Shown: piece by piece, positions 5,394-56,250 of the stretch
Position numbering within the stretch: the first letter of the stretch is position 1
Layout: the number at the start of each line of letters is the position of its first letter
Source: Alistipes sp.
Lineage (GTDB): Bacteria > Bacteroidota > Bacteroidia > Bacteroidales > Rikenellaceae
NCBI GenBank assembly: GCA_017408825.1
Contig: JAFQTX010000037.1
Span: 62,001 to 126,000, forward strand
Length of the DNA: 64,000 nucleotides
Direction of reading: 5' to 3'
Made by a program: the position numbers and the translations under genes
The notes under the pieces: model-generated
Databases searched by the model: none
Told to the model about the DNA's origin: nothing
The model's input: only the letters and a program-made list of their open reading frames with translations

Positions 5394-8222
5394 TTACTTA
5401 CGTCTATTTTTGTACGAAGGGCACGAGTTACGCCACTCGATAACTGCGGGCGATAGTCGCTCGCTACGATCCTCCCACATACGGTTCTCCACAAGGCGAC
5501 GACGATCGTAGTCGATACGCTCGACGATCGGGAATGTAGGCTTACGCAGCTTCGACACACTCACACGCTTTGTGGGGCGCTGCGTGCGGTTGCATATCTG
5601 GCGTCTGGTAGGGCGCAACGAGTCGCACCACTCGAAGCCCTGAAGGATGCGCTCCTGAGTCTCGGGGATCATACTCATAGGATAGAGCACATACTCGGGA
5701 TTCTGCTTAAAGACAATCTGGTCCATCTCTCCATCGTCGAGATAGAAGCTGATAGCCGAGCTCTCGATATACATCAACGCCGTAACATCGGGAGCATCCT
5801 CCTCCTGCATATAGTAGAGCGTCTGCGCATTGCCATCTACGTCGTAGCGATAGACCTGACCATCATTAAAGTAGGCATTCATATCCTTACCCTTAACCTG
5901 ATTGTAGGTCATCGTATCAATCTGAGCACCCATAATCGGAGCACCCATAAAGTGAGCACGTGTAATCTTCTGACGTGCTGTATATACCCACGCCGAGTCA
6001 GATGCTATCTGGTTGTTCTCGTTCCACATCACGGGGTTGATATACATACGCATCACAGAGTCGGAGTTGAGCGTGACGAGCGAGTCGCACACCATCTGCG
6101 AGTCGGAGCGGAACATCTTCACACGGCGGTAGGCCTTAACCATCTTGTAGACGCTATCGGCAGGTATCGCAGGCTTGTGCTGGAGGCTGTCGCCCAGCGA
6201 GTCACGCTGCAACGAGTCGGTCACGGCCTCTTCGAGAGTGGTGGTATCGCTCTGCGACTCGAGTATTGTATCACGTGTGATAGTATCCGACGGGTCGTAG
6301 TCCTCGCCAGTGTAGACCTTACCACGCTTTGCAGCACGGGCCTTTGCCTTGTCGATCTTATGGCGACGACGCTCCTCGGCCTTCTGCTTTACACGCTCCA
6401 TACGAGCCTTCTCCTCGTCGGCAAGGCGTGAGCTACGGGCTATGCGCTCAGCGATGATCGTGTCGAGCTTCATACGAAGTATCGAGTCTTGAATCTTCTG
6501 TATAGAGTCCTTGTGTGCCTGCTCTATGGCTCGTATCGAGTCACGCTTGGCCATCTCGACACCACGTATCGAGTCACGCACGGCACGCTTAGCCGCCTTA
6601 GCACGACGACGTAGCTGCTTAGCGCTATACTTCACACTATCTACGGCAGTGCTATCCACCGCAAGGCTATCTGTGGTAGCGGTGCTATCTGCCACTGGCT
6701 GCTCATCAACTAAGAGACTATCACGCATATTGTTAGCCTGTGGCTCGTCATTGGAATTTTGGGCTGTGCCAACCTCGTCCGCCGAGTTGGCCGCACCCTT
6801 ATCGAGTGAGTGTGGGGGCTGGTTAGCGCTCTGCGCACGTTCGCCACTCGAGGCTGGGTTATCACCCGTAGGTCGTGAGTTGCGGCCACTCTTCTTATCA
6901 CCCTTAGCACCCTTATCGTCCTTATTTGCCTTGTCGCCCTTGTCGCCCTTAGCGCCCTTAGCGTCCTGCCTACTATTATCCTCTCTACGATCACCCTCGG
7001 CAGTCTCCTTTGCGCCACTCTTGTCTATATTAGAGCGCTGCTCGCTCGCAGAGAGAGTAGCATTATGATTAGTGGTAGTATCACGAGGAGTGCTACCCTC
7101 AACCTTGGTATCACTGACCATTGTCTGCTCTTTGCCACTCGTAGCGGTGGTATCCTGCTTCTCGGGCTCGGGACGCACGTGCATAGTGTACAACCATACG
7201 GTATCGGCCGAGAGATATATCGAGTCGGTGAGCTCGGGGTCGTAGTTGATCATCGAGGGGCGACGTGTAAAGAAGGCGTTGCCAGGCTCATCCCACCACT
7301 CGGCATAGTCGGCAAAGCCGAGCACCTTCTGCGTGGTGTCATCGACCTGAATATTGCGACGCGCGATAATATGTCCTGCATCTCGATAGTACATCACCGT
7401 ATCGCTCCACACCTCACGCTCGGGCGAGAGCATATAGGCGTTGCGTGTGAGGTGGTGCAGGTCTGTACGCTTAGTGTAGGTACCAGCATCGGCATATAGA
7501 TACTCATCCTTATCGTTCCAGATATGAGTATGCGTAAAGTATTGAGCATCCTCGGTCTGGGTGTTGAATATCACCGAGTCGCTGAGCACCTGATAGGTGT
7601 TGTTGCGCATCTCGACACGCTCTACGGCCTTGAGCTCGTGGGTCTTTGTGTTGTAGTAGCCACGATCAGCCTCAAGGAGGTTATCATCCTTCTCCACGTA
7701 GCAGCCGCCACCAAACTCACCGATAGACTTTGCGGTGTTGAACTTACAGTTGTAGGTATACATCACAGCGCCATCATCAACAACCTTCACAAGGCGTGAG
7801 AATACCTTTGCGGTGTTGTTCATACGGTTATACTCGGCACGCTCGCCGTAGATATACGTGGTATTCTGGTTGATCATCACATTACCGAAGCACTCGAAGC
7901 TCTGGTTCGAGTAGCGCACAGCACTATCGGCAACGATAACAGCGCCATTGTGATGTGCAGCAAAGTTACCAACGAGGATAAATATCGTAGAGTCGCCCTT
8001 CTCGATAAGGTAGCTATCGTCAGCGGTCATATCCACCATACGACGGTCGGTCGAGCCACTGGGGTTCTGCGCCACGAAACTCTCATAGCGTGCCGAGGCC
8101 TTCACGGGCTCTACCTCGGGGGTTGTTGAATAGCGAATAAACATCTTACCACTCGCAGCATAGAGGAATACCCCTGCCACAAGCATAAGTACGATGAGTG
8201 TCAATATGTTTCTACGGCGCAT
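5394..8222 (-). CDS. OstA/LptA-like outer-membrane biogenesis protein with charged linker
   Basis: About 942 residues. An N-terminal membrane anchor (ILTLIVLMLVAGVFLYAASG) is followed by OstA/LptA-type beta-jellyroll repeats (e.g. AVVADSAVRYSNQSFECFGNV and the next ~250 residues), as found in LPS transport proteins that bridge the periplasm. Next come a long low-complexity linker (Asp/Lys/Gly/Ser-rich, about 370-520), a basic probable coiled coil rich in RxxKxxxR (about 535-640) and a second OstA-like segment. The start is taken as ATG at 8222; a GTG at 8228 is also in frame. It lies 14 nt after the SurA gene, so an outer-membrane assembly operon is likely. A role in LPS or outer-membrane transport is inferred from the domain. 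Confidence 0.8.
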   Translation of the reverse strand: MRRRNILTLIVLMLVAGVFLYAASGKMFIRYSTTPEVEPVKASARYESFVAQNPSGSTDRRMVDMTADDSYLIEKGDSTIFILVGNFAAHHNGAVIVADSAVRYSNQSFECFGNVMINQNTTYIYGERAEYNRMNNTAKVFSRLVKVVDDGAVMYTYNCKFNTAKSIGEFGGGCYVEKDDNLLEADRGYYNTKTHELKAVERVEMRNNTYQVLSDSVIFNTQTEDAQYFTHTHIWNDKDEYLYADAGTYTKRTDLHHLTRNAYMLSPEREVWSDTVMYYRDAGHIIARRNIQVDDTTQKVLGFADYAEWWDEPGNAFFTRRPSMINYDPELTDSIYLSADTVWLYTMHVRPEPEKQDTTATSGKEQTMVSDTKVEGSTPRDTTTNHNATLSASEQRSNIDKSGAKETAEGDRREDNSRQDAKGAKGDKGDKANKDDKGAKGDKKSGRNSRPTGDNPASSGERAQSANQPPHSLDKGAANSADEVGTAQNSNDEPQANNMRDSLLVDEQPVADSTATTDSLAVDSTAVDSVKYSAKQLRRRAKAAKRAVRDSIRGVEMAKRDSIRAIEQAHKDSIQKIQDSILRMKLDTIIAERIARSSRLADEEKARMERVKQKAEERRRHKIDKAKARAAKRGKVYTGEDYDPSDTITRDTILESQSDTTTLEEAVTDSLQRDSLGDSLQHKPAIPADSVYKMVKAYRRVKMFRSDSQMVCDSLVTLNSDSVMRMYINPVMWNENNQIASDSAWVYTARQKITRAHFMGAPIMGAQIDTMTYNQVKGKDMNAYFNDGQVYRYDVDGNAQTLYYMQEEDAPDVTALMYIESSAISFYLDDGEMDQIVFKQNPEYVLYPMSMIPETQERILQGFEWCDSLRPTRRQICNRTQRPTKRVSVSKLRKPTFPIVERIDYDRRRLVENRMWEDRSERLSPAVIEWRNSCPSYKNRRK

Positions 8223-45237: not shown

Positions 45238-45750
45238 ATGAAACTAACAACCGAAAACAAACAACTCACCCGCCTCGCTGAGCTAATGCAGTCCGAGCGC
45301 GACCATCTGTTTCGATACGCCTGCTATCGATTGGGGTCTGCCACCGAAGCTGACGACGTGGTGCAGGACCTCTACCTTCGGCTCTCGAAACGTGGCGCAC
45401 GACTTGCCGAGATTGAAGACCTAAAAGGCTACGTCTATCGCTCATTGACAAATAGTTGCACCTCAGTTTTACGCTCACGACGACAGTTTGCGACCACCGA
45501 AACGCTCGATACATTGAGTAGCGACGACCTCGCTCCGAAGGATTTCGAACAAGAGTTTCGATTGATCGAACGACTGATGGCGCACCTCCCCGATGAGCAG
45601 AGCGAAGTGATCCGATTGCGAATCTATGGCGGTCGTCAATTTGACGAGATTGCCTCGATCTGCAACATCCCTCTCACAACGGCCAAATCGCGTTTTCGCT
45701 ATGGCATTGACAAGTTGCGTGAAGCCCTCGAGAAGCGTGGGCTGATTTAA
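45238..45750 (+). CDS. ECF-type RNA polymerase sigma factor
   Basis: 170 residues. Region 2 (LFRYACYRLGSATEADDVVQDLYLRLSKR) and region 4 (LPDEQSEVIRLRIYGGRQFDEIASICNIPLTTAKSRFRYGIDKLREAL) are both clear. It directs RNA polymerase to a specific promoter set, under control of a partner. Its glutamate codons are about half GAA, whereas neighbouring core genes use GAG almost exclusively, a sign of separate origin. The next gene, 24 nt on, encodes the likely membrane-bound partner. Confidence 0.9.
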   Translation: MKLTTENKQLTRLAELMQSERDHLFRYACYRLGSATEADDVVQDLYLRLSKRGARLAEIEDLKGYVYRSLTNSCTSVLRSRRQFATTETLDTLSSDDLAPKDFEQEFRLIERLMAHLPDEQSEVIRLRIYGGRQFDEIASICNIPLTTAKSRFRYGIDKLREALEKRGLI

Positions 45751-45774
45751 CTCTCTGAAAAAAAGACCAACACT

Positions 45775-46524
45775 ATGAAAACTAACAACAATTTAGACAA
45801 CTCTTCGGATAGTCGCATTGAGAATATTCTCACTCCGCATTTTGCCCCCACCACCTCACTTTCGTTCAAAGCCCCCGCACCACGCCGACGCCCTCTCTGG
45901 CGAGCAGTACGCATTAGTGCCGTTGCCGCTGTAGTAGCAGTGGTAGTTGTCATCGGCATTCGTAGTGTGCAGACCAGCACCGCCCGTGAGGTTGTCGAGC
46001 GAGCAATGACCCAACTGCTCGAATCGGATAACTACCTCATTCAATTCACCGCAAATGTTACCGAGAACAAACTCTCGCAAGATGAACTCTACAATATTGA
46101 CTTCGTAGGTACTCCGATGCAAGGCAGCGTTGAGATTCGCAAAGAGGAGTCAAAGGTCAAGATGGCTATCAAGTGGCAGGACGAGGCTCGCTCTATGGAG
46201 CTCTATGACGGCGAGAGCTATCGACGTTATCAGAACGGGCAATTAGTAGTTGAACGACCCGACGGAGGTATCGACCTCACTCCGCTCGCTACGCTCGATA
46301 ATTTGAAGGAGTACGCCTTGCTAACGGGCATACTGCTAAAATTCCGTGAGGAGGGCGATATGATCTATGTTAGCACCAGGGGCGACAAGGTCGGGATCGT
46401 TGCTCGTTTCTCAAAGAGCGAGGGTCGCCTGCTCGGTGCCGAGTGCTCAGGGCTATACAACGGGCAGCAGGTTACGGTACTCACCCTCAATCGGATCGAC
46501 TTCGATGTGCCACCCGCCGAGTAA
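45775..46524 (+). CDS. Probable anti-sigma factor: membrane protein with LolA-like periplasmic domain
   Basis: 249 residues. A ~45-residue cytoplasmic N-terminus (SSDSRIENILTPHFAPTTSLSFK), one membrane segment (AVRISAVAAVVAVVVVIGIRSV), then a beta-rich periplasmic domain (~75-249) resembling the LolA/outer-membrane lipoprotein-sorting fold (QGSVEIRKEESKVKMAIKWQDEARSMELYDGESYRRYQNGQLVVERPD). Position after the ECF sigma gene and the topology suggest it holds the sigma factor at the membrane. The match to a named anti-sigma family is not certain. Confidence 0.7.
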   Translation: MKTNNNLDNSSDSRIENILTPHFAPTTSLSFKAPAPRRRPLWRAVRISAVAAVVAVVVVIGIRSVQTSTAREVVERAMTQLLESDNYLIQFTANVTENKLSQDELYNIDFVGTPMQGSVEIRKEESKVKMAIKWQDEARSMELYDGESYRRYQNGQLVVERPDGGIDLTPLATLDNLKEYALLTGILLKFREEGDMIYVSTRGDKVGIVARFSKSEGRLLGAECSGLYNGQQVTVLTLNRIDFDVPPAE

Positions 46525-46593
46525 GTACCACGCATCCTACTATAACATTGGCCACACCCTCGTAGAGTAGTGTCCACTACGCAAGTAGAGATA

Positions 46594-46788
46594 GACAAAG
46601 AGACTAAGACAATAGGAGATTAAGATAGTTGCAGACAACACTGATACCCGACCTCTTAATGGTCCTAATGGTCCTAATGGTCTTAAAAAGACAATTAAGA
46701 TATTGGGCTGGATAGGAGATACTAAGCGTATTTCCTATTCAGCCCAATGATTGAGTGAAGAGCAGATGACCCCTTATCTCAAGAAATT
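46594..46788 (-). repeat. Composite stop-codon repeat module, copy E (after the symporter gene)
   Basis: Core palindrome ATTGGGCTGGATAGGAGATAC / GTATTTCCTATTCAGCCCAAT (about 46703-46749), with changed but still paired bases compared with the other copies. TAATGGTCC arrays (46659-46684) and a degenerate front part are present; the GGGG array is absent. The right outer arm CTTATCTCAAGAAAT reaches the symporter stop at 46787; its left partner is missing. Confidence 0.7.
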
Positions 46789-48007
46789 ACTTTTTGACGA
46801 AGCGATCAACAACACAGGCACACGCTGCGTCACCAGTGATGTTAAGCGTGGTACGTATCATATCGAAGATACGGTCGAGGGCATAGAAGAGTGGCAGACC
46901 CTCAAGAGGGATACCCGCAGCCACAAGCACAGCGGCAGCCAGGAGCGTAGGACCTGGAACGCCTGCCTGACCGATAGCACCGAGTGTGCAGACAACAGTG
47001 ATCGACACGTAGTTATCCATCGTAAGCTCGATGCCGTAGAACTGCGCAAAGAATATTGCCAGAAGTGCGTAGTAGATGGCATTTCCCGACATATTAATCG
47101 TTGCGCCAAGAGGTAGCACAAAGCCTGCTGTCTGCTTCGATACACCCATCTGCTCGCACGCCTCCATATTCACTGGGAGCGTGGCCAGCGATGATGCGGT
47201 AGAGAACGACACAACCTGAGGTTTGATCATAGCATGAAAATAGTCACGGAGCTTTACACGTGAGAATAGCGATATGGTCAATGGGTAGAGGCCAAGACCT
47301 ATGATAAGCACCGCCAGGAGATCAAGCCAAAGCACATTGGCCATCTGCAATAGTTGGTCGAAGCCGAATGTTCCCGTAGCGTCGGCGATAAGGCCAAAGA
47401 CACCGAAAGGAGCTACAAGCATAACCTTGCCTATGCACCATACAAGGGCATCGAGGATGGTGTTAAGGCCACCCACAACCTTACGACGAGGCTCATCCTT
47501 GAGCGCCGAGATTCCGAAACCGAGGAATAGGCCGAAGATGATGATCTGCAAGATATTACCCTCAGCAAGCGCACGTATAGGGTTGTCGGGGATCATACCA
47601 ATGACCGTATCCCAGAAGCCCATAGCATCGGGTGCAGACCCCGCAACGGCAGCCGACACACCCGCAGCACTGATAGCGGCACGAGCCGATGCATCGACAT
47701 TTGCGCCAGGCTCAAAGAGCTCGGCAAGGAGTATAGCCAGGATTATAGATACAGCCGTGGTGGCGAGCATATAGAGGATGCTGATACCACCCACAAGTCC
47801 TGCTGAGCGGGTCTCGCCAAGGGCTGCAGCACCGCTTATGATTGACACAGCGACCAAAGGCACTACGAGCATCTTGATAAGCTGAATAAAGAGGTCGCCC
47901 AGGGGCTTAAACATTGAGGCCTCGGGGCCCATAAAGGCACCCACGACAGCACCCACGATCATAGCGATGATGATCCACACGCCAAGATTTTTAAGTAGCT
48001 TTTTCAT
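46787..48007 (-). CDS. Dicarboxylate/amino acid:cation symporter (DAACS family)
   Basis: 406 residues from the ATG at 48007 (MKKLLKNLGVWIIIAMIVGAVVG). Eight or so membrane segments plus two re-entrant hairpins: the serine-rich SFSTASSLATLPVNMEAC and the NMSGNAIYY transport motif. These couple uptake of glutamate, aspartate or C4-dicarboxylates to Na+ or H+. The NMxGxxxY Na+-site supports sodium coupling. Promoter TACCTTTG on the minus strand lies 21 bp upstream of the start. Substrate cannot be fixed by eye. Confidence 0.9.
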   Translation of the reverse strand: MKKLLKNLGVWIIIAMIVGAVVGAFMGPEASMFKPLGDLFIQLIKMLVVPLVAVSIISGAAALGETRSAGLVGGISILYMLATTAVSIILAILLAELFEPGANVDASARAAISAAGVSAAVAGSAPDAMGFWDTVIGMIPDNPIRALAEGNILQIIIFGLFLGFGISALKDEPRRKVVGGLNTILDALVWCIGKVMLVAPFGVFGLIADATGTFGFDQLLQMANVLWLDLLAVLIIGLGLYPLTISLFSRVKLRDYFHAMIKPQVVSFSTASSLATLPVNMEACEQMGVSKQTAGFVLPLGATINMSGNAIYYALLAIFFAQFYGIELTMDNYVSITVVCTLGAIGQAGVPGPTLLAAAVLVAAGIPLEGLPLFYALDRIFDMIRTTLNITGDAACACVVDRFVKK

Positions 48008-48027
48008 TATCATACATATATTTACCA

Positions 48028-48058
48028 CAAAGGTAGCATTTTGCTCTAAAAGTGCAAT
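48028..48058 (-). promoter_or_regulatory. Promoter of the symporter gene
   Basis: Minus strand ATTG (48058-48055), 19-bp spacer, TACCTTTG (48035-48028). Confidence 0.6.
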
Positions 48059-48109
48059 ACTCCCACCTAAAAATGTTCTACGAGTGGCAATTATTAATCC
48101 AAAAATTTG

Positions 48110-48117
48110 TATCTTTG
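48110..48117 (+). promoter_or_regulatory. -7 box for the TIR-WD40 gene
   Basis: TATCTTTG, 52 bp before the start codon. No clear TTTG lies 20 bp upstream, so the promoter may need help from an activator or a special sigma factor. Confidence 0.5.
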
Positions 48118-48169
48118 GCATTGCGACGGTGATATTACCGCAACTCTCAGGAAATAACAGGGCTAACAT

Positions 48170-50887
48170 ATGACAGATAAGGAGTATAAATACTACGCTT
48201 TTATAAGCTATAAACGTGAGGACGAGAGGTGGGCTAAGTGGCTTCAGAGCAAGCTGATGCACTACCGAATACCAACAAGCATACGCAGAGCGAAGCCCGA
48301 CCTGCCTAAGAACGTGCACCCCGTATTTCGTGACTCTACCGACCTGAGCGGAGGGGTACTTGCCGAGGCGATAAACAACGCCCTCGACAACTCCCGCTAT
48401 CTTATCGTCATCTGCTCGCCACGTGCCGCACAGTCGAAGTGGGTGTGCAAGGAGGTGCAACACTTTATCGACACTGGCCGTGAGAAGTATATCATCCCGT
48501 TTATCGTCGAGGGTACTCCCAACTCCAATGACGTTGCCACGGAGTGTTTCCCCGAGGCACTACGCACATTGGCGGGTAGCCGTGAGCTCCTTGGCATCAA
48601 CATCAACGAGATGGGGCGTGATGCTGCCGCCATTAAGGTTGTTGCCCGAATGTTTGGTCTCGAGTTCAACGATCTTTGGCGACGCTACGAACGCTATCGC
48701 CGCCGCCGCATAGAGCTTTTCGCACTTATAATGCTGCTAATCACCTCAATATCAATCGGCGTAGGAGTCCATATCGATAATCTTAATGCCGATATATCGG
48801 CAACAAACTCGGCCCTTACCGAATCAAATACCAAGATGCAAATCAACCAAGCCCGATTTGTATCCGAAAAGGCTATGCAGCTCATCGAGGAGGGTGATAG
48901 CTACACTGCAGCAAAGATAGCTTTAGCGGTATACGACAAATTGGAGAATGAGAATATACCTATTCCCGCCGAAGTGGAGTATGCATTGCGAGAGGCTACG
49001 GAGTATAAAGCTATGACTTTTAAGGGGCATAACGATAATGTATATTCAGTCGCATTTAGTAGTGACGGAAAGTATATCGTTTCGGCTTCTGGCGATAAAA
49101 CCATTAAGTTTTGGGAGGTAGAGAACGGAAATGTTATTAAAACTAATAATACATCTAATGATTTAGTTAATGCCACATTTAGCAGTGATGGAAAGTATAT
49201 CGTTTCGGCTTCTGGCGATGGAACCATTAAGTTTTGGGAGGTGGAGAAGGATAACCGTAAGGCAATTAAAACTCTTAAAGGGCATGATGCTTGGATAAAC
49301 TCTACCGCATTTAGCAGTAATGGTAAGTATATTGTGTCGGCTTCAATGGATAAAACCATTAAGTTATGGGAAGTTGAGGGGGATAACCGTGAAGCCATTA
49401 AAACATTTGAAGGGCATACAGATTTTGTAGAATTTGCCGCATTTAGCAATGACGGAAAGTATATCGTGTCGGCTTCATTCGATAAAACCATTAAACTCTG
49501 GGAAGTTGAGGGCGAAAATACCGAAGCAATTAAAACATTTGAAGGACATACTGACTTTGTAAACTATGCCACATTTAGCAGTGACGGAAAGTATATTGTG
49601 TCGGCTTCAATGGATAACACCATTAAGCTTTGGGAAGTGGAGGGGGATAACCGTGAAGCTATTAAAACATTTGAAGGACACACTGATGGGGCAAGGTCTG
49701 CCACATTTAGCAGTAATGGAAAGTATATCGTGTCGGCTTATTACGATGAAACCATTAAGCTTTGGAGTATTGACAGTCAAAAGTGCATTAGAACCATTAA
49801 TGGACATGATGATACTATTTCATCTGTAGCATACAGCCATAATGATGAATTGATAATATCATCATCATGGGACGACAAGATAAAATTATGGCGTACACAA
49901 ACAGACTATTCATCTAAATCGTTTATTGCACATGATGAATATGGTGTTTTTGCAATGGGATATAGTCATGACAGAAAACAGATAGCCACAGGAAGTACGA
50001 ATGGTGAAATAAAACTATGGGATGCAGAGAGTGGCACATGTATTAAAACTTATGATGGACATAATAGTGATGCAGTTCGTTCTATACAATTTAGCAGTGA
50101 TGGAAAGTATATTGTGTCGGCTTCTTACGATGAAACCATTAAGCTTTGGGAAGTTGAGGGGTATAACCGTGAAGCAATTAAAACATTTGAAGGACATACA
50201 GATGTTGTATACTCTGCCACATTTAGCAGTGATGGAAAGTATATTGTGTCCTTATCAACAGATGGCACAATGATATTTTGGGATATAGAAAGCAGGGAAA
50301 TTATCAAGACACTAAAGGATGATGGTAGTTTTTCGTACGAATCGTGTCTGAGTCCTAATGGCAAATACACTGTAAGCACATCTAATGATGGAAAAGTACA
50401 ACTTAGGGATATAGAGAGTAATAAAATAATTAAACAATTTGATGGAAATAAGAATACTCTCTACTATACTACCTTTAGCCCTGATGGAAGGTATATCGCC
50501 GCAAGCGCTGGAGATAAAACATTTATAATATGGGATGTAGATAGAGGAACAAAATATAAAACATTTAAGGGGCATAACGATATCGTTAGCCATTTCGAGT
50601 TTAGCCCGGATGGAAAGTATATAGCATCAGTGTCTTCTGATAGTGAGCAGATTAGAATATGGGATATTAATAGTGCTAGGTGTATCAAAACTTTTGAAGG
50701 TCACAGTGAGAGTATCACCTCTCTATTATTTACACCAGATGGTGAAAAGCTTATTTCTTCGTCATTTGACGGCACCATCAAATTTTGGGAATTCAAACCT
50801 CTCCAAGAGATTATCGACGAGACTCGTGAGCGATTTAAGGATAATCCGCTGACGGCTCAGGAGCGTAGAGAGTATTATATCGAGTAG
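48170..50887 (+). CDS. TIR domain - transmembrane - 14-blade WD40 protein
   Basis: 905 residues. TIR domain at ~5-150: opening strand YYAFISYKREDERWAKWLQSKL, then YLIVICSPRAAQSKWVCKEV with Glu95 in the position of the catalytic Glu of NAD-cleaving TIRs. A basic stretch RRYERYRRRR and one membrane helix (181-200) follow, then a helical stalk (201-280). Fourteen WD40 repeats (~283-880) suggest two seven-blade propellers, and the tail NPLTAQERREYYIE is of the kind found in signalling WD40 proteins. Blades 3-6 and 9-10 are nearly identical in DNA, and the WD40 part is more AT-rich than the TIR part. The TIR should be cytoplasmic, with the propellers on the other side of the membrane or folded back. 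NAD hydrolase or scaffold in signalling or defence: inference. Confidence 0.9.
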   Translation: MTDKEYKYYAFISYKREDERWAKWLQSKLMHYRIPTSIRRAKPDLPKNVHPVFRDSTDLSGGVLAEAINNALDNSRYLIVICSPRAAQSKWVCKEVQHFIDTGREKYIIPFIVEGTPNSNDVATECFPEALRTLAGSRELLGININEMGRDAAAIKVVARMFGLEFNDLWRRYERYRRRRIELFALIMLLITSISIGVGVHIDNLNADISATNSALTESNTKMQINQARFVSEKAMQLIEEGDSYTAAKIALAVYDKLENENIPIPAEVEYALREATEYKAMTFKGHNDNVYSVAFSSDGKYIVSASGDKTIKFWEVENGNVIKTNNTSNDLVNATFSSDGKYIVSASGDGTIKFWEVEKDNRKAIKTLKGHDAWINSTAFSSNGKYIVSASMDKTIKLWEVEGDNREAIKTFEGHTDFVEFAAFSNDGKYIVSASFDKTIKLWEVEGENTEAIKTFEGHTDFVNYATFSSDGKYIVSASMDNTIKLWEVEGDNREAIKTFEGHTDGARSATFSSNGKYIVSAYYDETIKLWSIDSQKCIRTINGHDDTISSVAYSHNDELIISSSWDDKIKLWRTQTDYSSKSFIAHDEYGVFAMGYSHDRKQIATGSTNGEIKLWDAESGTCIKTYDGHNSDAVRSIQFSSDGKYIVSASYDETIKLWEVEGYNREAIKTFEGHTDVVYSATFSSDGKYIVSLSTDGTMIFWDIESREIIKTLKDDGSFSYESCLSPNGKYTVSTSNDGKVQLRDIESNKIIKQFDGNKNTLYYTTFSPDGRYIAASAGDKTFIIWDVDRGTKYKTFKGHNDIVSHFEFSPDGKYIASVSSDSEQIRIWDINSARCIKTFEGHSESITSLLFTPDGEKLISSSFDGTIKFWEFKPLQEIIDETRERFKDNPLTAQERREYYIE
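49240..50260 (+). repeat. Near-identical WD40 blade repeats (about 132-bp units)
   Basis: Units of about 44 codons (e.g. those ending KTIKLWEVEGDNREAIK) are repeated around 49240-49760 and again at about 50090-50260 with very high DNA identity, including synonymous positions. This points to recent duplication or gene conversion inside the gene. Confidence 0.8.
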
Positions 50888-50889
50888 CT

Positions 50890-51645
50890 ATGCGACGGAG
50901 TAAAAAAATGTATAACACTGAAAATCAAATAAGTATGGAGCGAAAGAGGATAGTTGTATTTACGGGTGCGGGCGTAAGTGCCGATAGTGGCATTGCAACA
51001 TTTCGTGATGCGGATGGCCTGTGGGCAAACTACCGCATAGAGGAGGTGTGCACGCCCGAGGCGTTGCAGCGCAATCGTAGCAAGGTTATCGAGTTCTACA
51101 ACCTGCGTCGTCGTGAGTCGCTAACAAAAAAGCCCAATGCCGGACACGAGGCAATAGCCTCGATGGAGGAGTGGGCAGATGTGACAGTAATAACCCAAAA
51201 CGTGGATAACCTACACGAGCAGGCGGGCTCGAAGCGTGTGGTGCACCTCCACGGCGAGCTTATGAAGCTACGCTCGGAGCGCAACCCCGAGCTTATCTAC
51301 GACATCAACGATGGCTGGGAGCAGGATCTCGATGCTCGTGGCGAGGATGGTGCACTGCTACGCCCACATATCGTCTTTTTCGGCGAGTCAGTGCCTATGT
51401 TCGACGCTGCTTGTCGCATTGTCCAGTCGGCCGACATCCTCATCATCGTGGGCACGTCGTTGGCGGTCTACCCCGCTGCATCGCTGGTATATTACCTACG
51501 TGACCGCAACGTGCCTATATATCTTGTCGATCCAGGATCGCCCGACACGGCGATGATACGCAACCCTCTCACGCACATCAAGGAGCGTGGCGCTGTGGGT
51601 GTGCCTCAACTTGTAGAGCAGCTGCGCAATGAGCTTACGAAGTAG
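50890..51645 (+). CDS. cobB: NAD-dependent protein deacylase (sirtuin, CobB-like)
   Basis: 251 residues if started at 50890, just 2 nt after the TIR-WD40 stop; an ATG at 50935 (MERKRIVVFTGAG) is an alternative closer to the family start. Rossmann motif TGAGVSADSGIATFRDADGLW, TQNVDNLHEQAG and catalytic His121 in HLHGE. The four zinc-ribbon cysteines are absent in the stretch that should hold them (LMKLRSERNPELIYDINDGWEQDL), seen in some bacterial sirtuins. It removes acyl groups from lysines using NAD. It is co-transcribed with the TIR gene by spacing and overlaps the next gene by 17 nt. Confidence 0.92.
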   Translation: MRRSKKMYNTENQISMERKRIVVFTGAGVSADSGIATFRDADGLWANYRIEEVCTPEALQRNRSKVIEFYNLRRRESLTKKPNAGHEAIASMEEWADVTVITQNVDNLHEQAGSKRVVHLHGELMKLRSERNPELIYDINDGWEQDLDARGEDGALLRPHIVFFGESVPMFDAACRIVQSADILIIVGTSLAVYPAASLVYYLRDRNVPIYLVDPGSPDTAMIRNPLTHIKERGAVGVPQLVEQLRNELTK

Positions 51646-52147
51646 AGTTAGGGAGCGTGCCACAAAGCTACTGGAGTACTGTCGAGAGCGAGGCTACAAC
51701 ACACGCATAGCACTATTTGTAGACCTTAGCCGCCACTCGGGGCGCAGGCGCTTTGTGGCGTGGAGCTTCGAGCGAAATGCACCGATATTCACATGTCTTG
51801 TGAGCCACGGTAGCGGCTCAGCGCAGTCGCACGTGCGCTCGGCATATGCACGCACCTCCAACGAGGATGGCTCGCACCTCTCGTCCGCAGGACGTGCTCT
51901 TGTGGCAGAACGTTACGAGGGTCGCTATGGTGTGGCCTACCGTCTCGACGGCCTTGATGCAACAAATAGCAACCTACGCCCACGCTGCGTGGTGCTTCAT
52001 GGCTGGGAGCATACGACAAGCTACCCCATCTGGCCACGTGCCACGGTAGGTAGTTTCGGCTGCCCTGTGCTCTCACGCCGCATGATGCAAAAAGTAGACA
52101 CCCTGCTCCAAGCGGAACAAGGTGTCATCATCGAAATATTTATTTAG
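51629..52147 (+). CDS. Murein L,D-transpeptidase catalytic-domain protein (YkuD_2 type)
   Basis: 172 residues. Pattern of the YkuD_2 family: FVDLSRHSGRRRFVAWSF, VSHGSGSA, TSNEDGSHLSSAGRALV, YRLDGLDATNSNLRPRCVVLHG, ending in the catalytic GSFGCPVLS with Cys145 and His124 (VVLHG). Such enzymes modify or cross-link peptidoglycan, normally outside the cytoplasm. No clear signal peptide at this N-terminus, which is odd; an upstream start would lie deep inside the sirtuin gene. It overlaps the sirtuin gene by 17 nt. Confidence 0.8.
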   Translation: MSLRSRVRERATKLLEYCRERGYNTRIALFVDLSRHSGRRRFVAWSFERNAPIFTCLVSHGSGSAQSHVRSAYARTSNEDGSHLSSAGRALVAERYEGRYGVAYRLDGLDATNSNLRPRCVVLHGWEHTTSYPIWPRATVGSFGCPVLSRRMMQKVDTLLQAEQGVIIEIFI

Positions 52148-52154
52148 AGAATTA

Positions 52155-52186
52155 TTTGTAAATACGGATTTTTATTCGTATAATTG
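52155..52186 (+). promoter_or_regulatory. Promoter for the 111-residue/TIR-like membrane pair
   Basis: TTTG at 52155-52158 and TATAATTG at 52179-52186 with a 20-bp spacer. The first gene starts 200 bp further on, so the transcript has a long leader. Confidence 0.6.
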
Positions 52187-52228
52187 CATTAGCGAATTAC
52201 ACGAATACATTTTTTCACTACTAATCAA

Positions 52229-52325
52229 ACTTTACTACGCAGCACTATTATAGGGGTTATCAGCAAGTTATCATTCTGGGGTTTGCATTAACAGACCTCA
52301 ATACCCCTACTACTATCTGCGTAAC
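52229..52325 (+). other. Possible structured 5' leader
   Basis: Within the long leader, TAGGGGTT (about 52250-52257) can pair with AATACCCCTA (about 52299-52308), and an outer GCAG / CTGC lies around them; a GGGG tract sits in the loop (TCTGGGGTTT). Could be a regulatory RNA structure. Speculative. Confidence 0.35.
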
Positions 52326-52385
52326 AACAACTTACACATGGAGCTGACATATATAAACAAAACTTTAACCTAAACTACAAACAAT

Positions 52386-52721
52386 ATGGAACAGCTAACA
52401 CTAAACATTAAACGCCAGAGCAGTTTCACTGGCATGGCAATGCCATACCGCATCTACATAAATGGTGTAGAGATGGCAACAATTAACAACGGAGGTAGCG
52501 TATCACTGCAAATTCCAAATCAGCAATCAGTCCTCAAGGTATCGATGGTGGGAAATAGTATGACATTTCATAGTGTTGAGAAAGATGTTGTTATATTTCC
52601 AGAGTATTGTAAATCCAATGTGATAAATTGCGAGATTGTGACAAATACAAACTGGGTAGGTGCACTCAGCGGAGGTCTCTTTGGTGCGGTAGGCAAATTG
52701 GTTATCAATGTCAATTACTAA
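52386..52721 (+). CDS. Hypothetical protein, 111 residues, partner of the downstream membrane protein
   Basis: Beta-rich first part (LTLNIKRQSSFTGMAMPYRIYINGVEMATINNGGSVSLQIP), as in small beta-sandwich domains. A Gly-rich hydrophobic stretch near the end (WVGALSGGLFGAVGKLVINV) might insert into a membrane. No signal peptide. More AT-rich and with more ATA codons than core genes. 12 nt before the TIR-like membrane gene, so one operon. No family recognised. Confidence 0.65.
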   Translation: MEQLTLNIKRQSSFTGMAMPYRIYINGVEMATINNGGSVSLQIPNQQSVLKVSMVGNSMTFHSVEKDVVIFPEYCKSNVINCEIVTNTNWVGALSGGLFGAVGKLVINVNY

Positions 52722-52733
52722 TGTGATAGAATT

Positions 52734-54269
52734 ATGAGGTATGTATCTTTCATACTTGCGTTCATATTTGGCTTTATCTCCCTGGGTATTATCACAGAGT
52801 ACTTCAAGATGATATTCGGCATCGATGATTATTACGATATTCCGATTGCATTAGAAGGAACGATAGAGTTTTTTGATATTAAATACCAACTAATTGGGCA
52901 AGATATAGGCTCAATAATCATTGCCATAGTATTCTTTCTACTATTTTCGCGCTTCTACTCTATATATCATAGACTCAAAAAGCGCAAGAAAGATACCTAT
53001 GATGTCAATGAGATAAATGGCCCATTTATACTATATCTACGCTCATTCTCCGCTGATGCTACCACAAAGAAGCGTGTATCCTTTGCAGATACACTCTCCG
53101 AAGAGGAGGCACTTGTAGAGGCCCTATCAGACATCGCCCCAGTATATGCTATCGGTGATCCCAGAGATAAAAAGATGCCGATAGGAGCATCGCGCATATA
53201 TGTAGACGACGAGCATTGGAAATCTACCGTGGCCTCGATGGCCAGTAGAGCTACTCTTGTGGCTCTTCGACTGGGCAAAACTGATAGTTTCTGGTGGGAG
53301 GTGGAAATGGTATTAAAGAGTGTACCAATCGACAGAATACTCTTCATCATCCCTGAGAGCAAGACATTCAGCGAGCTATCTCTGCTATACAAGATTTTGT
53401 TGGAACACAATGTAGACATCCAAAACGTAGATGTTGCTATTGAGGCCAACAATCGCGGTAGCATATCCAGTTTTGTATTCTTCGACGCAGACGGAAAGCC
53501 CTATACATCGCAAGTTAAGACTGGACGTTTCACTCAGATATTCTTCAAATATACTGATGCAATACGTAAATCATTAGCAGTATTAAGGGCAAAATATGGA
53601 TTAGGAAGCCCAAAGAGAACACTACGAAAGGCCAGAATTTTACAAATTCTCTTTATCGTCAGTGTTATCTTCATGGGTATCATAACAACCCTGGGTCACT
53701 ACCTAAATTTGAAGTATCAAAGACCTTATGAGATTGTAGAAAAGTGTGTTAAAGACCAATCATTCGCACAAAAGTACTCAAGTGACATTAATGACATAAA
53801 TCTGACATACAGCATTATTGAGGCTCAAATAGGTACAATATCGCTCAGTGAAGAGGATTACAGAACTCTCCTACTCATTGAATCTAAAACAATGATGCAA
53901 ATATCAGCATCGGAGTTTGAGTGCATTGATGCAACTCCTTACAACCTACTATTGATGGTTATGAAGTATGCGCCAAACGACTACAACACGTATGTAGATA
54001 TTCTGGCGAAAGCTGCACTATCATCAATTAGACAACCCGAATACGTAGACGAGCAATACAACACATACTACTCGTATGCAGCATATATAAAGCTACCTGA
54101 GTGGTTGGAAATAGCGCTCTGCGAACTCGAGCAATGCCAGGATAAGTATTATGCTAATAAACAGTTTTATACTTCAATCTACAATCATATAAACGACCCA
54201 GACTTAGTTTTTATACAAAAGGTTGGTTTTAGTAGTATGTATATGGATAGTCTACAATTAGCTCAATAG
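52734..54269 (+). CDS. Membrane protein with divergent TIR-like domain
   Basis: 511 residues. Two N-terminal membrane segments (1-28 and ~55-78), a cytoplasmic domain (~95-255), a third membrane segment (~298-320), then a ~190-residue helical C-terminal domain. The cytoplasmic domain has a TIR-like order: strand FILYLRSFSADAT, VYAIGDPRDKKMPIGASRIYVDDEHWKSTVASMASRATLVALRLG, then DSFWWEVEMVL, where WE stands like the TIR W-x-x-E catalytic site, and RILFIIPES. This YLRSF...GAxRxYV...WExxxxL pattern is a known but unnamed bacterial membrane family, to my recollection. A TIR relationship is inference from topology. Confidence 0.65.
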   Translation: MRYVSFILAFIFGFISLGIITEYFKMIFGIDDYYDIPIALEGTIEFFDIKYQLIGQDIGSIIIAIVFFLLFSRFYSIYHRLKKRKKDTYDVNEINGPFILYLRSFSADATTKKRVSFADTLSEEEALVEALSDIAPVYAIGDPRDKKMPIGASRIYVDDEHWKSTVASMASRATLVALRLGKTDSFWWEVEMVLKSVPIDRILFIIPESKTFSELSLLYKILLEHNVDIQNVDVAIEANNRGSISSFVFFDADGKPYTSQVKTGRFTQIFFKYTDAIRKSLAVLRAKYGLGSPKRTLRKARILQILFIVSVIFMGIITTLGHYLNLKYQRPYEIVEKCVKDQSFAQKYSSDINDINLTYSIIEAQIGTISLSEEDYRTLLLIESKTMMQISASEFECIDATPYNLLLMVMKYAPNDYNTYVDILAKAALSSIRQPEYVDEQYNTYYSYAAYIKLPEWLEIALCELEQCQDKYYANKQFYTSIYNHINDPDLVFIQKVGFSSMYMDSLQLAQ

Positions 54270-54302
54270 TTGAGCGGGTTGAGTATATACGGTAAATAAC
54301 AT

Positions 54303-54350
54303 AAAAAACAGCAGGAGCAGTGTTGCGTACACCACTCCTGCTGTTTTTTA
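54303..54350. terminator. Bidirectional terminator between convergent genes
   Basis: AAAAAACAGCAGGAG... pairs with ...CTCCTGCTGTTTTTT; an inner GTG / CAC pair extends the stem around TTGCGTA. A-run on the left and T-run on the right let it stop transcripts from both sides. Confidence 0.9.
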
Positions 54351-54365
54351 TATATCGCTATGCAT

Positions 54366-55472
54366 CTACTTGAAGTAGATGTCGAGCAACTCCTTGGCGG
54401 CGATGAATGACGAGAGCTTGGCATCGAGAACGCGCTGCTCGACATCAGCCATACGCTCCTGAATCTCAGGATTGTTGTAGAAGCTCGACTTAAGAGTCTC
54501 GTTGATAGTCTCGTACATCCAATACTTATTCTGGCGGTTACGGTTCGATGTAAAGTAGCCGTTAAGCTCGATATGTTGCAAGTATTGCTCCACGCCCTGC
54601 CATACCTCCTCAAGGCCTGTGCCCTCGAGCGACGAGCAGGTATAGACCTGAGGTCGCCAGCCCGAGTCGGCGAGAGGGAAGAGGTGTAAAGCTCCCTGAT
54701 ACTGCGCCTTAGCAAGTTCGGCCTTGGTGACATTCTCGCCATCGGCCTTGGTGATAACCATCATATCGGCCATCTCCATAATACCACGCTTGATACCCTG
54801 AAGCTCATCGCCAGCACCCGAGATCTGGAGCATCATAAACATATCGACCATAGAGTGCACAGCGGTCTCGCTCTGACCTACGCCCACGGTCTCGATAAAT
54901 ATCACATCGAAGCCCGCAGCCTCGCACAACACGATAGTCTCACGGGTCTTACGTGCCACACCACCCAACGATCCCGCCGAGGGCGAGGGGCGAACAAAGA
55001 TATCGGGGTTGTGGCAGATGGTCTCCATACGTGTCTTATCGCCGAGAATTGAGCCTCCGCTACGCTCCGACGAGGGGTCGATAGCCAATACGGCCAACTT
55101 GTGCTTATACGACGTCACCATATTACCTACAGCCTCGATGAAGCTCGACTTTCCAGCACCTGGAACACCCGTGATACCGATACGTACCGACCTACCCGAA
55201 TGGGGCAAGCAACGCTCGATAATCTCCTGTGCCTGAGCATAGTGCGTAGGATTATTACTCTCGATAAGGGTGATTGCCTGAGCAAGTATCGTGATATTAC
55301 CAGCCAGTATACCATCGACATACTCGTCGGTGGTCATCTGGCGGCGCTTACGACGCACGAAATAGGGGTTTACAACAGGCTTATCCTCAACACCCTCAGT
55401 AACGTTAAGGGCGCTATCGTGGTGCTGATCGAGATACTCTTTCTCGTAGTGCTCAATCTTGGTATATGACAT
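54366..55472 (-). CDS. meaB: Methylmalonyl-CoA mutase-associated GTPase MeaB
   Basis: 368 residues. G3E P-loop GTPase with GVPGAGKS (102-109), AIDPSSERSGGSILGDKTRM, FIETVGVGQSET and VITKADGEN. It loads and protects the B12 cofactor of methylmalonyl-CoA mutase. Its presence fits the methylmalonyl-CoA epimerase/decarboxylase operon 0.8 kb away on the other strand. It ends with a C-terminal dimerisation arm (AAKELLDIYF). The thioredoxin-like gene lies 2 nt upstream of its start, on the same strand. Confidence 0.95.
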   Translation of the reverse strand: MSYTKIEHYEKEYLDQHHDSALNVTEGVEDKPVVNPYFVRRKRRQMTTDEYVDGILAGNITILAQAITLIESNNPTHYAQAQEIIERCLPHSGRSVRIGITGVPGAGKSSFIEAVGNMVTSYKHKLAVLAIDPSSERSGGSILGDKTRMETICHNPDIFVRPSPSAGSLGGVARKTRETIVLCEAAGFDVIFIETVGVGQSETAVHSMVDMFMMLQISGAGDELQGIKRGIMEMADMMVITKADGENVTKAELAKAQYQGALHLFPLADSGWRPQVYTCSSLEGTGLEEVWQGVEQYLQHIELNGYFTSNRNRQNKYWMYETINETLKSSFYNNPEIQERMADVEQRVLDAKLSSFIAAKELLDIYFK

Positions 55473-55474
55473 TG

Positions 55475-55972
55475 TTACAGGTATTTAGGTTTTACGTTTT
55501 TCAAATTAAGCAGATCGTAGAGCTGCTCGGCAGAGAGTTGCATCAACGATCCAAACCACTTTACACGTCGGCTCTTGGTCTCATAGACCACGGCAAATGG
55601 TATATGGCTGACACCGAAGTTCTTAAACGTACGATAATCGTTATCAAAAGCCAAGATGGTATCTTCCGACGTAAAGCTATTGAGCACCTCCTGCTCGAAG
55701 CCATCCTGCTCGGGGGTGATGAGCACCACGGCGAGGTGACCACGTAGGCTCAGCGCCATATTCGAGAACTCACGAATAGCATCCACCGAGGGTCTACTCT
55801 CGGAGTGCATAAATATGATACAGGTGTAGGCTCTATCCACAAGCTTCAGATCGGAGCCCACCGTAGAGTCCACATCGATGCTCGGCAGACGCTCGTCGAG
55901 CTTCAGATGCTGCGCCCCAACAACGCTGGCCGACATCGCAAAAGCGAGTATGATAAGTAATAGCTGTTTCAT
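55475..55972 (-). CDS. Secreted thioredoxin-fold protein without CXXC
   Basis: 165 residues from ATG 55972 (MKQLLLIILAFAMSASVVGAQ, signal peptide); an ATG at 55975 adds one Met. The fold follows TlpA/AhpC-like proteins (HLKLDERLPSIDVDSTVGSD, CIIFMHSESRPSVDAIREFSNMA, LAFDNDYRTFKNFGVSHIPFAVVYE with the cis-Pro). In place of WxxWCxxC there is FMHSESRPS, so no redox-active pair. It probably binds a partner rather than exchanging disulfides. Reads directly into meaB (2-nt gap). Confidence 0.75.
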   Translation of the reverse strand: MKQLLLIILAFAMSASVVGAQHLKLDERLPSIDVDSTVGSDLKLVDRAYTCIIFMHSESRPSVDAIREFSNMALSLRGHLAVVLITPEQDGFEQEVLNSFTSEDTILAFDNDYRTFKNFGVSHIPFAVVYETKSRRVKWFGSLMQLSAEQLYDLLNLKNVKPKYL

Positions 55973-56250
55973 CATCCTACAACGGGGTATTAGCACCCAT
56001 AGTCCAGAGTGCGAAGATAACTATTTTTTCGGCAAATATCAATTTGCACCCATAATTTTTATCATTTTCAGAGGTTTTATTTTCACAAAGTTGCGTTTCC
56101 GAAAATTTGTGAACTTTTTTTATAAAAAAGAGCCGAAAATATTTCGCTGTTTCAAAAAGAAAGAGTACCTTTGAATGATTTTTGGAAATAGTGAACGCAG
56201 GTAAAATTTCAAAAAAAATATTAAGTTAAACTTTATAAAAACTAAACACT

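Follow-up and report, generated by a model that had tools for sequence, protein, structure and literature searches.

Thoeris consists of the TIR protein ThsB and the SIR2-SLOG protein ThsA, and DSR1 and DSR2 are large SIR2 proteins with a long C-terminal part. Toll-like receptors cross the membrane once, with the TIR domain on one side and a repeat-containing sensor on the other. In TIR NADases, the catalytic glutamate lies in the S-x-W-x-x-x-E region. Here we describe a locus in a stretch of 64,000 nucleotides from an Alistipes sp. metagenome-assembled genome (MAG) (contig JAFQTX010000037.1, positions 62,001 to 126,000; hereafter, the window), where a gene encoding a TIR domain, a membrane helix and 14 WD40 blades is followed by the genes for a sirtuin and a YkuD_2 protein. 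The initial annotation suggested that the three genes may be one system, in which sensing of membrane or cell-wall damage would lead to NAD signaling. Our analysis leads, with moderate confidence, to a different reading: the TIR gene encodes a self-contained TIR-WD40 membrane receptor, inserted in the 5' leader of a sirtuin-YkuD_2 operon and seemingly using its promoter, and the TIR domain would cleave nicotinamide adenine dinucleotide (NAD+) upon ligand binding.

Genomic context of the TIR gene

The source MAG comprises 1.89 Mb in 44 contigs, and the contig with the locus is 244 kb long. All three genes named in the initial annotation are present as + strand open reading frames (ORFs), at 48170-50887 (905 amino acids), 50890-51645 (251 amino acids) and 51629-52147 (172 amino acids), with matches to WD40 (E 1.7e-139), SIR2 (E 4e-42) and YkuD_2 (E 1.4e-26), respectively, in a Pfam scan that covered ten ORFs between 45238 and 55996. 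Of the tight packing described there, the 17-nt overlap between the sirtuin and YkuD_2 genes stands and has similar counterparts in several relatives, but the 2-nt gap upstream of the sirtuin hinges on the choice of start codon. The sirtuins of relatives align from about the ATG at 50935 (MERKRIVVFTGAG), so that the true sirtuin gene is likely 50935..51645, and the distance from the TIR stop codon is likely 47 nt.

The conservation of the gene order was examined in 81 genomes (the source genome and 80 relatives; 49 belong to the genus), among which the sirtuin was detected in 73, YkuD_2 in 28 and the TIR domain in 8. YkuD_2 is present at 60% identity or more in 16 other genomes of the genus and adjoins the sirtuin gene in 15 of these; the sixteenth, G036, has it at the end of a contig and yielded no sirtuin. 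All 15 adjacent pairs are without a neighboring TIR gene. Two of the genomes with an adjacent pair, G035 and G041, do have a TIR match, but on another contig; in G035, the TIR-WD40 gene is on contig C21 and the sirtuin-YkuD_2 pair on C31. The sirtuin has a match in 42 other genomes of the genus; wide stretches around it were fetched for 20 of these and for G043. Across the 20 loci, an SDF-type symporter (46787..48004, - strand, in the window) is directly upstream of the sirtuin in 10, those of the closer relatives, YkuD_2 is downstream in 14, and a TIR gene is found in none; the G043 stretch contains neither TIR nor YkuD_2. Named sirtuin loci number at least 587; the best 80, which come from genomes partly overlapping the same-genus set, include YkuD_2 in seven cases and TIR in none, and the closest named relatives among these 80 are mostly from Alistipes and Rikenellaceae MAGs, many of them from the ruminant gut. 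In both the 20 and the 80 sirtuin loci, the absence of TIR refers to a search with the TIR domain as the query.

The converse comparison gave the same picture. Neither a sirtuin nor YkuD_2 was found in any of the 23 fetched stretches around TIR relatives, which span 3.6 to 19 kb, are in part short (3.6 kb for L109 and 8.7 kb for L094) and exclude G341:C70 and five non-own matches of the phylum search. Thus, relatives keep the pair without the TIR gene, and TIR relatives lie apart from the pair, two observations that the initial annotation itself had named as arguing against a single system; the three-gene order was not found in same-genus relatives or in the best 80 named sirtuin loci. The sirtuin and YkuD_2 genes are most likely a housekeeping pair, beside which the TIR gene came to lie by insertion, and the three genes are therefore probably not one system. 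The evidence favors the more cautious option that the initial annotation had also offered, namely, ordinary genes placed together by chance.

The position of the insertion was traced by aligning the symporter-sirtuin spacer of ten relatives with the window, from which the TIR reading frame had been removed. A box of the TAnnTTTG type, which we take to be the -7 promoter consensus, is located upstream of the sirtuin and is exact in nine of the ten relatives, with L045 differing at the last base. In the window, this box (TATCTTTG, 48110..48117, + strand) precedes the TIR start codon by 52 nt and is the only + strand match to TAnnTTTG in 47991-52400; because about one match is expected there by chance, it is the alignment that gives the box its weight. 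The TIR gene is located between this conserved box of the sirtuin operon and the sirtuin start codon, and therefore seems to borrow the sirtuin promoter. There is no further + strand TAnnTTTG box between the genes, which makes a single transcript plausible, and the TIR transcript may read through into the sirtuin gene.

An 8-bp direct repeat read from the sequence (TGCGACGG, left copy 48122..48129, right copy 50891..50898, both + strand) brackets the TIR gene and may be a target-site duplication. By our estimate, the chance of an 8-mer common to both leaders is about 0.03; the left leader still resembles that of G035 past the left copy, which speaks against this copy as the exact border. Inverted repeats were found, but none of them frames the TIR gene. 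The locus illustrates that genes can look like an operon when one of them has inserted behind a promoter, and its dissection removes a misleading TIR-sirtuin-transpeptidase system.

Architecture, family and blade variation of the TIR protein

The 905-residue protein (48170..50887, + strand) consists of a TIR domain, a membrane helix, a linker and a 14-blade WD40 part. Residues 1-200 match TIR_2 (PF13676; E 4e-17) and ThsB_TIR (PF08937; E 1.7e-8, 35 bits against a cut-off of 21), the former being the stronger match, and TIR families alone were matched within residues 1-277 at E values up to 1. Glu95 (codon 48452..48454, + strand), previously singled out as the candidate catalytic residue, is invariant in all 20 aligned TIR proteins, an alignment that excludes L100, L103, L105 and L109, and the TIR domain is predicted to consume NAD+ through this residue. 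The best membrane window begins at residue 184, and the helix (residues 184-202; 48719..48775, + strand) is preceded by seven lysines or arginines in 15 residues and followed by none in 15. The C-terminal part contains fourteen WD motifs spaced 41-44 residues apart, which form blades spanning residues 282-874 (49013..50791, + strand), enough for two propellers of seven blades each. The AlphaFold2 model, built from a six-sequence alignment (mean pLDDT 82, pTM 0.56), places the TIR domain at 10-162, followed by a low-confidence helix at 166-194 overlapping the membrane segment in part, a long helix at 199-240, linker helices up to 278, 56 strands between 282 and 874, that is, 14 four-stranded blades by our count, and two C-terminal helices. 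Hence, the membrane TIR protein with its glutamate and WD40 sensor, as initially described, holds up, whereas its coupling to the other two genes does not.

The charge bias around the helix would place the sensor on the outside, so that the TIR domain would be cytoplasmic and the WD40 part external; an outside location suits a C-terminal part with only four cysteines in 635 residues. The GC content is 56.0% in the sirtuin gene, 50.6% in the TIR part, 37.1% in the WD40 part and 49.2% in the window. The TIR part (51%) is thus near the host value and the WD40 part (37%) is not, which might reflect a separate origin or mutational history of the sensor half.

Relatives of the TIR protein are sparse. 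At E 1e-10, they occur in 16 of the 393 genomes searched in the order, and at E 1e-20 in 6 of 395 in the phylum; both counts include the source genome. A contig scan with the whole TIR-WD40 protein as the query found no relative. We assembled a family of 24 proteins, the window protein and 23 relatives, after dropping L066 (E 5e-4). A single hydrophobic window directly follows the TIR domain in 21 of the 24, with at least as many lysines and arginines before it as after it. The C-terminal parts differ: WD40 in the window protein, L094, L095 and L060 (by motif in L094 and L095); CarboxypepD_reg in L063 and, below the cut-off, in L098 and L099; a coiled coil in L093; only weak RHS-like matches in L096; WD40-like termini in the helix-less L101 and L102; and no domain match in L061, L064 and L106. 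By these predictions, this is a sparse Bacteroidales family in which a TIR domain and, in most members, one membrane helix are joined to exchangeable C-terminal parts, and the combination of glutamate, helix and swapped sensors can be read as that of a receptor family. We found no description of a TIR-membrane-WD40 family in a search of the open-access literature.

Some relatives have unusual layouts. L097 (3758-5749) encodes a TIR domain, one membrane helix and leucine-rich repeats, which are the Toll-like receptor domains in reverse order. Directly downstream of the L101 TIR-WD40 gene is a gene for a second TIR protein, with hexapeptide repeats (L101:4003-6240). L094 and L095, both from G358, are TIR-WD40 paralogs of different lengths, with a DNA identity of 84% across the first 1.9 kb; in L094, the WD40 array runs on in another frame past the end of the TIR-WD40 ORF (6348-6827), and the frame break may be real or due to assembly.

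To locate the variable positions, we made codon-level comparisons between similar blades of the same protein, using pairs above a DNA identity cut. The residues R1-2, R1 and D-1, described as the top-face contact residues of WD40 propellers (Wu 2012, PMC3419727), were assigned to these blades by us from the rules given in that paper. In the window protein (14 similar pairs), these positions rank 1, 1 and 3 of 40 for amino-acid changes and show no silent changes. Among the 9880 possible sets of three sites, the number that do as well as the contact sites is one for the window protein, five for L095 and ten for L094. Similarly, seven sites taken from fungal HNWD repeats (PMC12222747), with a numbering match that we inferred, account for 37-38% of the changes in the window protein, L095 and L094, against 17.5% expected. 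Top-face contact sites are thus among the most-changed between similar blades in these three proteins. Such variable faces are known in kind, because diverse hotspot sites in otherwise conserved repeats are reported for repetitive prokaryotic WD40 proteins (Hu 2017, PMC5587647); here, they are attached to a membrane TIR protein.

Proposed function, neighboring genes and alternatives

Under the reading proposed here, the TIR domain would face the cytoplasm and the WD40 part the outside, where a ligand of phage or competitor origin would bind to the variable top faces of the propellers. Binding would cluster the TIR domains, which would then cleave NAD+ through Glu95, stopping or killing the cell. 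Oligomerization has been described as a requirement for TIR activation (PMC13174449). More tentatively, and with less than even confidence, we propose that the relatives are single-pass TIR receptors of Bacteroidales, in which a conserved cytoplasmic TIR domain and membrane helix carry exchangeable outside sensors (WD40 double propellers with variable faces, LRRs, CarboxypepD-like domains and others). Such receptors would respond to surface or periplasmic events during phage attack or competition with NAD+ chemistry across the inner membrane, and their binding faces would be diversified by repeat recombination.

Several observations weigh against this interpretation. The blade pairs are not mutually independent; at the strictest identity cut, only two pairs remain in the window protein and the signal is gone (1300 of 9880 sets). 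L060 has no similar blade pair, and L101 has a single one, with 6 of 21 changes (29%) at the seven sites, which is not unusual. The blades of the window protein are on average 38% identical, compared to 70% in L095 and 59% in L094, although the best window pairs reach 84%. Three relatives, L101, L102 and L062, lack the membrane helix, and the 13 cysteines in the C-terminal part of L095 would be odd in an oxidizing exterior. PADLOC detected no complete system at the locus; its matches there include SAVED_TIR (E 5e-7), located in the TIR part, and HEAT-ARM_XIII (E 5e-37), which lies over the WD40 repeats and aligns with 200 of the 1972 positions of its model. The completeness of the MAG is 83%. 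Matches to the TIR protein in plasmids are distant (10 records, identity at most 42%), and none was found among phages and viral contigs, so that mobility is suggested by the patchy occurrence of the gene.

The sirtuin (50935..51645) contains the motifs GAGxSxxSG, TQNxDxLH, HG and GTS, which are those of Sir2 deacylases (CobB-like) and are present in 13 aligned sirtuins; NCBIfam Sir2 deacylase models match it, all below their own cut-offs. It has 236-251 amino acids, with the Sir2 domain at residues 26-195 and PF02146 as the only Pfam domain. It does lack a zinc ribbon, as initially noted, but this trait is the norm and does not set it apart: by eye, the Cys-x-x-Cys pair is absent from all 13 aligned sirtuins, four of which come from other families. 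No signal peptide is visible in the YkuD_2 protein (51629..52147, + strand), the frame of which is open for just four codons beyond the ORF, too few to hold one, or in the 14 relatives when read from the common start codon. L045 and L048 have a hydrophobic stretch in frame upstream of this ATG, so that for these two the result counts from the common ATG and an upstream start is possible. Because no signal peptide is visible, a cell-wall role of YkuD_2 is doubtful, which further weakens the notion of a cell-wall damage sensor. Within one genus (L040-L053), YkuD_2 without a visible signal peptide often overlaps the sirtuin gene and is possibly a cytoplasmic YkuD enzyme.

Downstream of the pair, a second insert between YkuD_2 and meaB comprises two orphan genes with GC contents of 40.2% and 39.1%. 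The first (52386..52721, + strand) encodes a protein of 111 amino acids, p111, with one weak match (E 0.007) besides the source genome among 61 genomes. The second (52734..54269, + strand) encodes p511, with 511 amino acids, a hydrophobic N-terminus by eye and, at low confidence, a possible alternating beta/alpha domain; the mean pLDDT of its model is 45, and we do not use it as proof. Among the 392 other genomes of the order set, p511 has one relative, in G361, about 12 kb from a TIR relative on the same contig. The same stretch contains genes for a RyR-domain protein, a PrsW-like protein (labeled by eye) and an FGE protein whose TIR_2 match, at 27.9 bits, narrowly misses the cut-off of 28. 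L193 and L093 (G361:C21:105000-135000) form a cluster of RyR, TIR-like FGE, PrsW-like, p511-related and membrane TIR coiled-coil proteins. A RyR protein also adjoins the TIR protein of L096.

Joint action of the TIR sensor, the sirtuin and the YkuD_2 enzyme in NAD signaling after envelope damage, as originally proposed, appears very improbable: the close same-strand packing and the lack of a further promoter box between the genes would suit it, but all 15 adjacent same-genus pairs are without the TIR gene, TIR relatives are located elsewhere, the sirtuin has the same form as in relatives, and YkuD_2 has no visible signal peptide. That the insertion is an assembly artifact of the MAG is scarcely credible, even for a gene rich in repeats and an assembly in 44 contigs, given the intact reading frames, the 244-kb contig and the gene order of relatives, which continues on both sides (the symporter upstream; meaB, trx and gloA downstream). 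A further alternative is that the TIR gene and the orphans (52386-54269) are halves of one acquired conflict module straddling the housekeeping pair. Neither insert occurs in the 20 fetched same-genus loci, the WD40 part and the orphans share a low GC content (37-40%, against 56% in the pair), and the p511 relative of G361 lies near a TIR relative and the RyR, FGE and PrsW-like genes. However, in G033 the p511 relative (contig C33) and the sole, weak TIR match (C96) are on different contigs, the YkuD_2-meaB gap holds unrelated genes in other species, and the orphans occur in none of the 23 fetched TIR stretches, so we regard such a module as possible but weakly supported and, on the whole, quite unlikely.

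Other alternatives concern the protein itself. With cytoplasmic propellers and the helix as a mere anchor, it would be an intracellular sensor of phage proteins. The relatives without a helix, two of which have WD40-like C-termini (by motif or eye), and the frequent cysteines in L095 and L101 (13 and 18, respectively) are compatible with this topology, which nevertheless seems to us somewhat unlikely in view of the positive-inside bias and the one clear hydrophobic helix in 21 of the 24 proteins, the scarcity of cysteines in the window protein and the CarboxypepD-like C-termini of some relatives, such domains being usually extracytoplasmic. We also consider it unlikely that the TIR part acts as a scaffold with no enzymatic activity, or that it serves the cell's own envelope signaling rather than defense. 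The profile matches to solved TIR structures are weak (best E 2e-4) and we know of no activity for the membrane TIR family, but the glutamate is invariant and the occurrence in the order is patchy, unlike that of housekeeping genes. We retain the self-contained membrane receptor as our preferred interpretation.

Comparison with known systems

As in Thoeris, the TIR gene stands beside a gene of the Sir2 fold, and the TIR domain scores above the Pfam cut-off for ThsB_TIR; unlike in Thoeris, it carries a fused membrane helix and WD40 blades, and the sirtuin consists of PF02146 alone. A search for a ThsA partner found no SIR2_2 in the source genome, with the control positive in 2 of 14, and a STALD search was uninformative, its control giving no match. 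We thus rejected membership in Thoeris, given a neighbor of 251 amino acids with PF02146 only and no SIR2_2 in the same genome. DSR membership was rejected as well, for a sirtuin of 251 amino acids with its Sir2 domain at residues 26-195 and a lone PADLOC match, PDC-S65 (E 3e-4). The proposed output, NAD+ depletion by a single protein, resembles that of the antiphage NADases DSR2 and SpbK; the relation is limited to the domain class, and the window sirtuin is far smaller than DSR2. Association with a short prokaryotic Argonaute was likewise rejected, as Pfam detected no Argonaute family in the ten ORFs scanned (45238-55996).

Closer in architecture are the bacterial and plant receptors of the TIR-NBD-WD40/TPR/LRR type (PMC9153377), which share the N-terminal TIR domain and the C-terminal repeat sensor; in place of an NTPase domain, the window protein has the membrane helix and further helices. 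Membership in STAND/NLR proteins was rejected, with residues 1-277 matching TIR families only and the model showing helices from 166 to 278. Fungal HNWD proteins (HET-D/HET-E; PMC12222747), which are non-self receptors, have similar tandem WD40 repeats, room for a double propeller and variable sites on the interaction surface, and such a concentration of variation at top-face sites was found in the window protein, L095 and L094; unlike the window protein, with its mean blade identity of 38%, they have HET and NLR core domains and repeats more than 80% identical. Compared with the repetitive WD40 proteins of Hu 2017 (PMC5587647), the blades of L095, at 70% average identity, stand at the cut-off of that study, whereas those of the window protein fall to 38%, and the term TIR is absent from the main text of that paper. 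Our results point to membrane TIR proteins with swapped sensors, some with WD40 faces variable in the fungal style.

The likeness to animal Toll-like receptors is one of layout rather than shown ancestry. The window protein would share the single-pass layout, and its relative L097 has leucine-rich repeats; unlike in Toll-like receptors, the order is reversed and the protein is bacterial and a predicted enzyme. A membrane protein of a gut bacterium that resembles immune sensors is of interest on its own. If the outside topology and the NADase activity are borne out, transmembrane immune receptors of Toll-like layout would exist in bacteria, and the family, if real, would be a bacterial counterpart of Toll-like receptors in layout, with no claim to common descent.

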